Origin: Micavibrio sp.
GTDB lineage: Bacteria; Pseudomonadota; Alphaproteobacteria; UBA9219
NCBI GenBank assembly: GCA_020718105.1
Contig: DYDA01000012.1
Coordinates: forward strand, 1-60,763
Reading direction: 5' to 3'
DNA: 60,763 nt
Part shown: piece after piece, positions 30,751-48,260 of the stretch
Layout of the letters: every line of letters begins with the position of its first letter
Position numbering within the stretch: the first letter of the stretch is position 1
Made by a program: the position numbers and the translations under genes
The notes under the pieces: generated by a model
Database searches by the model: none
The model's input: the letters and a program-made list of their open reading frames with translations, nothing else
What the model was told of the DNA's origin: nothing

Positions 30751-31503
30751 TTATGACTTTTTCTTGCGCTTGGGTCCATCGACCAGCGCGGATAGAACGC
30801 CATGCCATGAGCGGATTTCTTGCTCGGTCATTTCGGCGCGACCTAAGGTTGATTGTAGGTTGCGCGTTATGGTGGGGCGCATATCATCGGCTACGAAAAA
30901 GCCAGCCTTGTCCAGCTCATCTTCAAAACGGTCAAAGAATTTCTGATATTCCTCGCGCAAAGCGGGGCGGCTTTTGCCTATGCGAATACGGTTTTCGGGG
31001 GTGGCATCGTTCGCCTGATACCACTCATAGCCAATCAGCAAAACCGTTTGCGCCAGATTGAGCGACATAAAGTCGGGGTTCAGCGGAATGGTGATCTTGG
31101 CGTTCGCCAGCGCGACGTAATCGTTGATCAGGCCCATGCGTTCGGGCCCAAACAGGACGCCTACTTTCTGCCCATCAGACGTGCGCTCAATCATATCGGG
31201 AACAGCAGCGCGAGGCGTCATGATGCGGTTGACCATATCGTTGCCACGCGCCGTTGTGGCGTAAACGTAATTCAAATCCGCAATCGCGTCCTTCACCGTG
31301 TCATAGTGCTTGGCGTTTTCAAGGATATCGTCTGCGCCAGAGGAGGCTGCCATCATGCGTTGACGATGAATATCGCCCAGAGGCCACGGATCGCGAGGGC
31401 TTACGATGCGCAGTTCAGGCAGGGCGCAGTTCGCCATGGCACGCGCCGTCATGCCGATGTTTTCGACAAGCTGCGGATGAACAAGGATGATGATGGGATT
31501 CAT
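30751..31503 (-). CDS. trmJ: tRNA (cytidine/uridine-2'-O-)-methyltransferase TrmJ (SpoU family)
   Basis: 250 residues. SPOUT motif 1 is HPQLVENIGMTARAMANC, with the catalytic Arg in ARAM; motif 2 is VLFGPERMGLINDYVALANA; motif 3 is IPLNPDFMSLNLAQTVLLIGYEWY, forming the SAM-binding trefoil knot. This is the TrmJ/TrMet(Xm32) pattern, methylating the ribose of tRNA position 32. The start is unusual: the first codons (MN) are provided by an inserted palindromic element, and a second copy of the next 24 bases lies 137 bases upstream. The ancestral start was probably the ATG overlapping the upstream gene's stop at 31640. Confidence 0.93.
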   Translation of the reverse strand: MNPIIILVHPQLVENIGMTARAMANCALPELRIVSPRDPWPLGDIHRQRMMAASSGADDILENAKHYDTVKDAIADLNYVYATTARGNDMVNRIMTPRAAVPDMIERTSDGQKVGVLFGPERMGLINDYVALANAKITIPLNPDFMSLNLAQTVLLIGYEWYQANDATPENRIRIGKSRPALREEYQKFFDRFEDELDKAGFFVADDMRPTITRNLQSTLGRAEMTEQEIRSWHGVLSALVDGPKRKKKS

Positions 31504-31610
31504 GAAATGACCTGTAACACAACGGCAGTGTCATCCCCGCGAAAGCGGGGATCCCGTTTCTTTTCTAAACCAAACGGGACTCCCGCTTGCGCGGGAGTGA
31601 CGGAAAAATA
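31498..31610. repeat. Family C palindromic element inserted in the trmJ 5' end, flanked by 24-bp direct repeats
   Basis: 31474-31497 and 31611-31634 are identical 24-base direct repeats, being codons of the trmJ N-terminus (PIIILVHP). The 113 bases between contain a family C palindrome (31530-31601): GTCATCCCCGC...GCGGGGATCCCGTTT and AAACGGGACTCCCGC...GCGGGAGTGAC, two hairpins that also pair with each other. The structure reads as an insertion with target duplication, or as a tandem duplication that includes the element. The inserted DNA provides AGG and the ATG now used by trmJ. The displaced 5' copy still follows the AbrB-like gene with an ATGA overlap. Confidence 0.85.
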
Positions 31611-31639
31611 CGGATGAACAAGGATGATGATGGGGGCGG

Positions 31640-31810
31640 TCATTTGTGCTTGCAAGGTTCTTTTTGTTTTAGGGCTGTAAAGTGAAGCCCATGAGGTGTT
31701 GGCCTAATATCGAAATCATCGCCAAGCTTTACGTCGAGCCAGTCAAGGGCTTCTTGCGGAAAATTAATAAACAACTCGCCATCGGGTGTTTCTTCGATTT
31801 TTGCGCGCAT
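31640..31810 (-). CDS. Small AbrB/SpoVT-like domain protein
   Basis: 56 residues from the ATG at 31810; a longer frame starts at 31831 and overlaps cysS. The sequence ELFINFPQEALDWLDVKLGDDFDIRPTPHGLHFTAL has the AbrB-type swapped-hairpin pattern: strand, P-x-x-x-L, then lxxGDxxxixxxxxgi-x-l. Such small proteins are often antitoxins or DNA-binding regulators; no toxin gene is adjacent. Its TGA overlaps an ATG (31641-31643) that begins the displaced 5' fragment of trmJ, suggesting that it and trmJ were once translationally coupled. The start lies 5 bases after the cysS stop. Confidence 0.6.
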   Translation of the reverse strand: MRAKIEETPDGELFINFPQEALDWLDVKLGDDFDIRPTPHGLHFTALKQKEPCKHK

Positions 31811-31815
31811 TATTT

Positions 31816-33198
31816 CTACCCTCTCCGCCATGTCGTGCCTGCCGCGCTGTCCTCTAGGATCACGCCTTGCTGCGCAAGGGCGTCGCGGATGCGGTCGGAT
31901 TCGATGAAGTTCTTGGCCTTTTTGGCGGCCAGACGCGCCGCGATTTGCGCGTCAATTTCGGCATCCGAAAGGCCGCTTACCGCGCCGCCGCTCTTGAACC
32001 ATGCCTCCGCGTCCTGTTGCAAGAGGCCAAGAGCCTCACCCGCCGCAAGAAGGGCGGCTTTCAGCTCTGCTTTCGCTTCGTTCGTGGTGGCGCGGTTGAG
32101 CTCGCCCACCAGTTCATGAATATGCGCAATCGCCAGCGGTGTGTTGAGATCGTCAAGAAGGGCGGCTTCGACGGCTTCGGGTGTTGTCGCGGTGGAAGTG
32201 GGCGTGTCCTTCACATTCCGCAACGCCCCATACCATTTGTCCAGCGTCGCCTTGCATTGCGCCAAGTTATCCTTGGTGAAGTCGCAAGGCTGGCGATAGT
32301 GCGATTGAAGGAGCGACAGGCGGATTGCCTCGCCAGAGGTTTCGTCCAGCAATTCATGCACCGTAAAGAAATTGCCCAAAGACTTGGACATCTTCTCGCC
32401 ATTCACGGTCAAAAAGCCGTTATGCACCCAGTAGTTTGCCGGAGGCGCGCCATCATGGGCGCACGCGCTTTGCGCGATTTCGTTTTCATGATGCGGAAAA
32501 ATCAAATCCAGCCCGCCGCCGTGAATATCGAACGTCGTGCCCAGCAAATCATCCGCCATGGCCGAGCATTCCAAATGCCAACCCGGACGGCCATAGCCCC
32601 ACGGGCTATCCCATCCTTCGCCGCCTTCGGGCGCAGGCTTCCACAACACGAAATCGGCGGGGTCTTTTTTATACGGCGCGATTTCCACGCGGGCTCCGGC
32701 GATCAGCTCATCACGCGTGCGGCGGGAAAGTTTGCCATAATCCGCCATCGATTGAACGGAAAACAGGACGTGCCCTTCCGCCTCATACGCAAAGCCCTTG
32801 TCGATCAGCGTTTGCGTGAGCGCGATCATTGGCGCGATATAGGCCGTAGCGCGAGGCTCATGATCGGGGCGCAGCGCGTTCAAATGATCCATGTCCTGAT
32901 GGAACATTTTTGTCGTGCCAACCGTTAGCTCTTTGATGGAAACGCCGTTCTCTTTTGCGCGTGCAAGGATCTTATCATCCACGTCTGTGATGTTGCGGGC
33001 ATAGGTGACCTTGGGATAGTGGCGCTTCAAAAGGCGATACAGCGTATCAAACACCACGATAGGCCGCGCATTACCGATATGCGCAAAATCATAAACCGTG
33101 GGGCCGCAGACATACATGCGAACATTATTCGCATCAATGGGGGTGAACACTTCCTTGGTGCGGGAGAGGGTGTTGTAAAGGTGGAGGGTGGTGGTCAT
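31816..33198 (-). CDS. cysS: Cysteinyl-tRNA synthetase
   Basis: 460 residues from the ATG at 33198, which has GGAAGG 6 bases upstream; the frame extends to 33213, but that ATG would sit inside the Shine-Dalgarno site. Class I signatures: HIGN at 40-43 in YVCGPTVYDFAHIGNARP (Cys31 is a zinc ligand) and KMSKS in NGEKMSKSLGNFFTV. Other zinc ligands lie in GWHLECSAM and HHENEIAQS. It charges tRNA-Cys. It is monocistronic or shares a transcript with the AbrB-like gene and trmJ downstream. A family B repeat separates it from gltX. Confidence 0.98.
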   Translation of the reverse strand: MTTTLHLYNTLSRTKEVFTPIDANNVRMYVCGPTVYDFAHIGNARPIVVFDTLYRLLKRHYPKVTYARNITDVDDKILARAKENGVSIKELTVGTTKMFHQDMDHLNALRPDHEPRATAYIAPMIALTQTLIDKGFAYEAEGHVLFSVQSMADYGKLSRRTRDELIAGARVEIAPYKKDPADFVLWKPAPEGGEGWDSPWGYGRPGWHLECSAMADDLLGTTFDIHGGGLDLIFPHHENEIAQSACAHDGAPPANYWVHNGFLTVNGEKMSKSLGNFFTVHELLDETSGEAIRLSLLQSHYRQPCDFTKDNLAQCKATLDKWYGALRNVKDTPTSTATTPEAVEAALLDDLNTPLAIAHIHELVGELNRATTNEAKAELKAALLAAGEALGLLQQDAEAWFKSGGAVSGLSDAEIDAQIAARLAAKKAKNFIESDRIRDALAQQGVILEDSAAGTTWRRG

Positions 33199-46484: not shown

Positions 46485-46599
46485 TATAGTCCGTCCGATT
46501 GAAAACCCGAAAATTTTTTCTCCGCCAAGACGCATAAGGCCAAGGTCAATCAACAGCCGCGGCCAAAAAATTTTCGGGTTTTCAAGTTGACGTAGTATA
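46485..46599. mobile_element. Candidate MITE: 115-bp element with long terminal inverted repeats and TA flanks
   Basis: A perfect 21-bp inverted repeat (46499-46519 with 46565-46585; core GAAAACCCGAAAATTTTTT) is continued outward with mismatches to 35 bp (19 of 24 outer positions aligned), ending in TATA on both sides. A 45-base centre contains no coding sequence. TA at both ends fits the target duplication of Tc1/mariner/IS630-type transposases. It carries no transposase, so it would be a non-autonomous element. It lies upstream of mlaC in an 800-base gap. Confidence 0.55.
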
Positions 46600-48014: not shown

Positions 48015-48184
48015 TGGTGGACCTGATCGGGATCGAACCGCTGTGCGCGTAGGCGCACAACATATATTTTGTCGGTTCGATTATCCTGATGATTGTTTTT
48101 GGTGGACCTGATCGGGATCGAACCGCTGTGCGCGTAGGCGCACAACATATATTTTGTCGGTTCGATTATCCTGATGATTGTTTT
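48015..48184. repeat. Tandem 85-bp repeat built from the tRNA-Ala 3' end
   Basis: Two identical 85-bp units (48015-48099, 48100-48184) directly adjoin the tRNA gene. The first 26 bases of each unit equal the last 26 bases of tRNA-Ala (T arm from its third pair, acceptor strand, CCA). The rest contains a hairpin (GTGCGC, 4 bases, GCGCAC) and GTCGGTTCGAT, an inverted copy of the tRNA T arm. The remainder of the 47939-48379 gap shows no gene. Confidence 0.95.

Positions 48185-48260
<76 letters not shown>

Follow-up and report, generated by a model that had tools for sequence, protein, structure and literature searches.

A probable insertion of REP-bearing DNA with target duplication at the start of trmJ in a Micavibrio-like genome

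REPs carrying a CGTC tag are widespread in the Alphaproteobacteria and have been reported in Micavibrio, with no transposase known for them (PMC3733652). The paper that defined them leaves open how they spread, and its text contains no occurrence of "duplicat" (PMC3733652). Rickettsia palindromic elements (RPE), to the extent that the work of Ogata et al. is represented where it is cited (PMC3733652), are palindromes inserted in frame in protein genes. Long and variable target duplications flanking insertions have been found between close genomes, according to the citation of Nobusato et al. (2000) in PMC3031569. There are also the PATEs of Haloquadratum, which are derived from IS605 and are short, transposase-free elements with palindromes near their ends, without terminal inverted repeats and without target duplication (PMC3119063). 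No report joining REPs with long target duplications was found in the open-licence literature. The locus described here, at the start of a trmJ gene, appears to join the two.

The trmJ start and its duplicated segment

The window, that is, the whole stretch of 60,763 nucleotides that was analysed, is one contig of a 1.91-Mb draft genome (G000; 42 contigs, 96% complete) whose nearest relatives, judging by record titles, are Micavibrio-like alphaproteobacteria. Gene order on the minus strand is cysS, a 63-aa AbrB/antidote-like ORF and trmJ. The trmJ product matches Pfam SpoU_methylase (2e-20) and TIGR00050 (8e-42, under the curated cut-off of that model), while a Pfam search with the 63-aa ORF gave no match. 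The slot between cysS and trmJ holds this orphan antidote-like ORF in G000 (window 31640-31831) and a MazE-like/Doc pair in its place in the sister species G005 (L061:3189-3802); in the relative G002 a MazE-like gene lies upstream of trmJ. The features of the locus are as follows.

30751..31503, minus strand: trmJ (TrmJ/YjtD-family RNA methyltransferase), 250 aa, starting at the new ATG 31503-31501
31474..31497, minus strand: inner copy of the 24-bp duplication, coding for PIIILVHP of the present TrmJ (sequence repeat)
31498..31529, minus strand: 32-bp non-repeat spacer of the insert, holding the new ATG and an upstream AGG; no second copy in G000
31530..31601, no strand assigned: REP dimer of two inverted CGTC-type REPs, GTCATCCCC... 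/ ...GGGAGTGAC, 72 bp; about 66 similar pieces in G000
31602..31610, minus strand: 9-bp flank of the dimer, resembling the tails of other copies (TGACGGAAWAA; sequence similarity)
31611..31634, minus strand: outer copy of the 24-bp duplication (sequence repeat)
31500..31643, minus strand: 47-codon ORF running from the putative older start through the REP dimer to the ATGA of the new trmJ start (frame reading)
31641..31643, minus strand: putative older trmJ start ATG, in an ATGA with the stop of the antidote-like ORF (compared with G002)
31640..31831, minus strand: AbrB/antidote-like ORF, 63 aa, with a weak doc_partner antidote match (E 0.003, below cut-off)

The first-pass annotation of this DNA had claimed that two identical segments encode the PIIILVHP start of TrmJ, and the exact repeat is confirmed, the 24-mer CCCATCATCATCCTTGTTCATCCG being present twice, at 31634-31611 and 31497-31474. 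Its next-best match in the 60-kb window is 75%, and in 833 kb of G000 few exact repeats of this size lie 50-350 bp apart once coding repeats and tRNA arrays are set aside. The intervening 113 bp (31498-31610) consist of 9 bp, the 72-bp REP dimer and 32 bp. The palindrome of a repeat family (family C) that had been recognised between the copies is this CGTC REP dimer, but the inserted unit is larger, with 41 of the 113 bp lying outside the dimer and 29-32 of those 41 having no match elsewhere in the genome. A whole-genome search of G000 with the insert returned about 66 dimer-like pieces, with matches ending at insert position 84 and the outermost 29 bp of the 32-bp spacer having none; a search of G000 for donors of the spacers likewise found nothing. 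No inverted repeats were found at the ends of the 113-bp insert. When folded, the insert with its dimer is far more stable than shuffled versions (z -5.7).

The outer copy is preceded by ATGACCGCC, the ATGA of which overlaps the stop of the antidote-like ORF; with the matching left flank in G002, this agrees with the earlier suggestion that the outer ATG was the original trmJ start. The present ATG (31503-31501) had been attributed to inserted DNA, and it does sit in the non-REP 32 bp between the dimer and the inner copy, where ATGAAT precedes the inner copy and is, past an in-frame stop, the sole start available to the trmJ frame. The predicted N-terminus of TrmJ is now MNPIIILVHP, and would formerly have been MTAPIIILVHP. 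Three consecutive ORFs (antidote-like, 47-codon and trmJ) are joined by ATGA overlaps, which may couple their translation. In G005 the frame corresponding to the 47-codon ORF has no ATG, and this ORF is therefore not a conserved gene.

The junction in related genomes

Among the trmJ loci checked in related genomes, only G000 and its sister G005 have a second copy of the trmJ start. The TrmJ of G005 is 93% identical to that of G000, and in this independent assembly the same segment is duplicated over 30 bp around another REP dimer (L032/L061), with 8 bp separating this dimer from the outer copy and 41 bp from the inner one. The occurrence of this duplication in G005 means that an assembly error does not explain the repeat and that G000 is not alone in carrying the event; since the duplication in G005 surrounds a different palindrome, the event is either older or recurrent. 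The two trmJ palindromes differ strongly, and the spacers are weakly alike (p about 0.05). A native-looking ATGACCACC is located at the inner copy in G005, and therefore a longer original duplication or later changes would be needed there.

The trmJ locus of G002 is single-copy, reading ATGACCACCACCGCT-CCCATCATCATTCTTGTTCATCCG-CAGCTTGTC. Its flanks match the left side of the outer copy (ATGACC..CCGC.) and the right side of the inner copy (CAGCTTGTC), which is the pattern that a target duplication would be expected to leave. The earlier proposal of an insertion into the 5′ coding region of trmJ with duplication of the target fits these flanks, and other REP inserts repeat the pattern. When the junction is compared with and without the element, the distant relatives are single-copy, and such a site is known only from relatives at no more than 77% TrmJ identity; the sister G005 is duplicated around its different palindrome, and G002 lacks the ATGA overlap, its antidote-like gene ending upstream of trmJ.

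Other REP-type inserts and the extent of duplication

Close exact repeats were searched for without bias in a first 460 kb and later in 833 kb (44%) of G000. These proved to be mostly coding repeats, tRNA arrays and MITE ends, together with four REP-type inserts with a duplication, namely trmJ (24 bp), purE/GGDEF (18 bp), nuoD-nuoE (18 bp) and L168:11360 (20-26 bp).

The insert between nuoD and nuoE (L182:16627-16846; G000:C33:41627), genes named from a reading of the flanking codons and not from a database match, has an exact 18-bp target duplication. Both G005 and G001 have uninterrupted sites, and the matches to them from either side share exactly 18 bp; on sequence comparison, this is the cleanest empty-site evidence among the inserts found. 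The 165-bp REP insert adjacent to purE (L120/L165:12888-13088; G000:C42:52888) has an 18-bp target duplication, with the site being single-copy in G001, G002 and G004 and occupied at the same spot by a different MITE in G005. A member of that MITE family is also present in the window (46485-46599). The third, a 256-bp insert at L168:11360-11655 (G000:C42:111360) with a 20-26-bp duplication, is common to G000 and G005 and single-copy in G001. Between the two species its spacer is conserved while the interior of its palindrome has diverged, which would be the same course as that proposed for trmJ below. The inserts are asymmetric, with 8-9 bp on one side of the dimer and 32-45 bp on the other at trmJ (G000 and G005) and purE, and 8/49 at nuoD-nuoE. 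No shared ends or terminal inverted repeats were found among the REP inserts.

Flank-to-flank matches with a score of at least 16 occurred at 4 of 95 REP-type places against 0.25 expected from mismatched flanks, though L174, counted among the four, is a MITE remnant, and the grouping used missed the L168 insert. That family C is or was mobile, as the first-pass annotation had held, is borne out by insertions relative to single-copy relatives, and repeats in the 15-30-bp range that it proposed to look for flank three further REP-type inserts (18, 18 and 20-26 bp). However, most family C copies have no flanking repeat, and a long target duplication is thus not a general property of the family. 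No further REP inserts with long duplications were found in the scanned stretches of G016, G010, G003 and G002.

An in-frame REP dimer in nadB (L002:1016-2560, L100) occupies the same position in both G000 and G005 and is absent from G001-G004; its palindromes are nearly identical in the two species, while the flanking codons differ more. In cysS, in-frame REPs occupy the same codon region as a dimer in G005 (L061:2470-2600) and as a single hairpin in G002 (L088:2566), and are absent from G000 and G003. No long duplication was seen at the nadB or cysS REPs. A pairwise census of G000/G005 stretches also revealed further places where a REP has inserted into an overlapping gene junction and the duplication is small or lacking. 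In four of these differences (L182:10431, L254:10201, L254:10992 and L261:4268) the gene downstream appears to have gained a new ATGA start from the insert, and two of the starts lie directly after GGAGGTYGC, a strong ribosome site (GGAGGTCGCATGA in G000, GGAGGTTGCATGA in G005).

A number of candidates were rejected. The 15-bp repeat around a REP at L174:13264 belongs to a MITE, the same sequence being found with inverted ends ATACCAACGACCCTATGAA / TTCATTGGGCGGTTGGTAT at L168:17410, and the apparent duplication is an adjacent terminal remnant of that MITE. The 18-bp case at L216:36 appears, as judged by eye, to involve the ends of the AAGAGTTGG MITE, and the 12-bp flank repeats at L119 and L132 are unconvincing once all places are counted.

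Other repeat structures were also encountered. Several REP dimers lie between arrays of degenerate heptamers, with TTAGGGG to one side and CCCCTAA/CTGACCC to the other, which make larger inverted repeats (L015, L018, L026, L182:16780-16828). In the window at 48015-48210, the 26-bp 3′ end of a tRNA-Ala is repeated three times with identical 59-bp hairpin-containing inserts between, and at L179:14832-15016 (G000:C19) the last 38 bp of a tRNA-Ser are duplicated beyond a 109-bp hairpin-rich insert.

Origin of the insert and comparison with known systems

We put at about 0.78 the probability that REP-bearing DNA was inserted at trmJ with duplication of its target. A segment bearing a REP dimer, 113 bp as now seen, would have entered the older trmJ frame about 33 bp in, and at least 24 bp of target would have been duplicated on either side of it. 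The outer copy would retain the old junction (antidote stop/ATGA), while the inner copy would restore the conserved TrmJ N-terminus and the end of the insert would supply the ATG, the methylase therefore staying intact. The insertion is probably older than the divergence of G000 and G005, the palindrome having been replaced or rearranged afterwards, and this single ancestral event is preferred over two insertions.

With regard to mechanism, strand switching in repair or replication, returning 18-30 nt behind the point of departure, may have produced the duplication, although we would give it somewhat less than an even chance; a staggered cut followed by fill-in is almost equally likely. The narrow 18-30-bp range favours the staggered cut and the mixture with duplication-free insertions favours strand switching in repair, to which we lean slightly. 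The lack of a spacer donor in G000 counts against the explanation, being predicted by neither transposition nor strand switching. A Y1/RAYT transposase (PF01797) was not found in the 96%-complete G000, with positive controls, and neither was Ku.

The foremost rival concerns this mechanism and not the insertion itself. It is that a dedicated transposase moves the REP dimers, making an 18-30-nt staggered cut, with DNA of variable extent taken along at one side (one-ended ends). Such a mechanism is possible but not favoured: the duplications at four loci fall within the narrow 18-30 bp and the asymmetry is alike at trmJ (G000, G005), purE (8-9 vs 32-45 bp) and nuoD-nuoE (8/49), but no Y1/RAYT was found in the 96%-complete G000, the inserts are without terminal inverted repeats or shared ends, and other REP insertions show no or tiny duplications.

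Two independent REP insertions at one trmJ hotspot, one per lineage and each with its own long duplication, would account for the differing dimers, duplication lengths (24 vs 30 bp) and upstream genes, and the purE site has likewise taken different elements in G000 and G005. The segment is nevertheless the same in both species, as is the geometry, with 8-9 bp next to the outer copy, and the spacers are weakly alike (p about 0.05). L168 is also an example of a shared insert whose palindrome has diverged, and we regard two insertions as unlikely. It is less probable still that a local 24-bp duplication of the trmJ start came first, with REP dimers later entering or replacing each other between the copies. 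Both species do have the duplication with differing dimers, and the nearly identical nadB palindromes indicate that such elements need not diverge fast; however, dimer and duplication recur together at three unlinked sites, and at two of these only one species has both. An assembly artefact or a chance repeat can be dismissed, as G000 is a 42-contig draft but the independent assembly of G005 has the same duplication, and 24 exact in-frame coding bases are far beyond chance.

The preferred reading, one insertion of REP-bearing DNA with target duplication, would also fit a recurring theme, in which REP DNA enters stop/start overlaps and, in the survivors, a duplication or a new start has preserved both genes. 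Where genes adjoin tightly, selection would retain the insertions that leave both intact, and may thereby shape which REP insertions are visible. As a tentative and rather doubtful proposal, the CGTC REP dimers of this lineage may spread through a process not yet described, in which 40-57 bp of additional DNA are carried along and 18-30 bp of target are duplicated, so that overlapping gene junctions can be entered with neither gene broken, and the gene downstream often acquires a new ribosome site and start codon. Where empty sites are clean and duplications can be measured, insertions make the spread of CGTC REPs a testable question, and the 18-26-base copies at three more G000 insertions are a clue to how common, unexplained bacterial repeats may move. 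Such insertions also illustrate how hairpin repeats can settle between overlapping operon genes, rewriting the downstream start without killing the gene.

Compared with described elements, the trmJ dimer is like the CGTC-tagged REPs in its CGTC end, 8-9-bp stems, head/tail dimers, occasional location inside genes and lack of a dedicated transposase. Its arms (TGTCATCCCC.. and CGTCACTCCC..) carry the CGTC/TGTC tag and have about 66 related pieces in G000, 31530-31601 is one '+-' dimer, a class with 17 of the 66 C-type places tested, and no dedicated Y1/RAYT was found in G000. Like RPE, the in-frame palindromes of nadB and cysS would be translated within the host protein; unlike RPE, the trmJ insert is not in the protein, the frame restarting after the dimer with only the 47-codon leader ORF reading through. 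MITEs have terminal inverted repeats and a short fixed duplication, whereas the ends at trmJ have no inverted repeat and the duplication is 24 bp. The inserts resemble PATEs in shape but differ from them in this same duplication. Single-copy relatives and two flanking copies, as in the long target duplications of Nobusato et al., are found at trmJ against G002 and, exactly, at nuoD-nuoE against G005 and G001; the case of those authors, as far as it is described where cited, involves restriction-modification gene blocks, while here it is hairpin DNA of REP size. What sets some of these inserts apart from the CGTC REPs as described in PMC3733652 is a target duplication of 18-30 bp together with 40-57 bp of additional DNA, and it is this combination of a long target duplication with extra carried DNA at REP inserts that is, as far as we have found, new.
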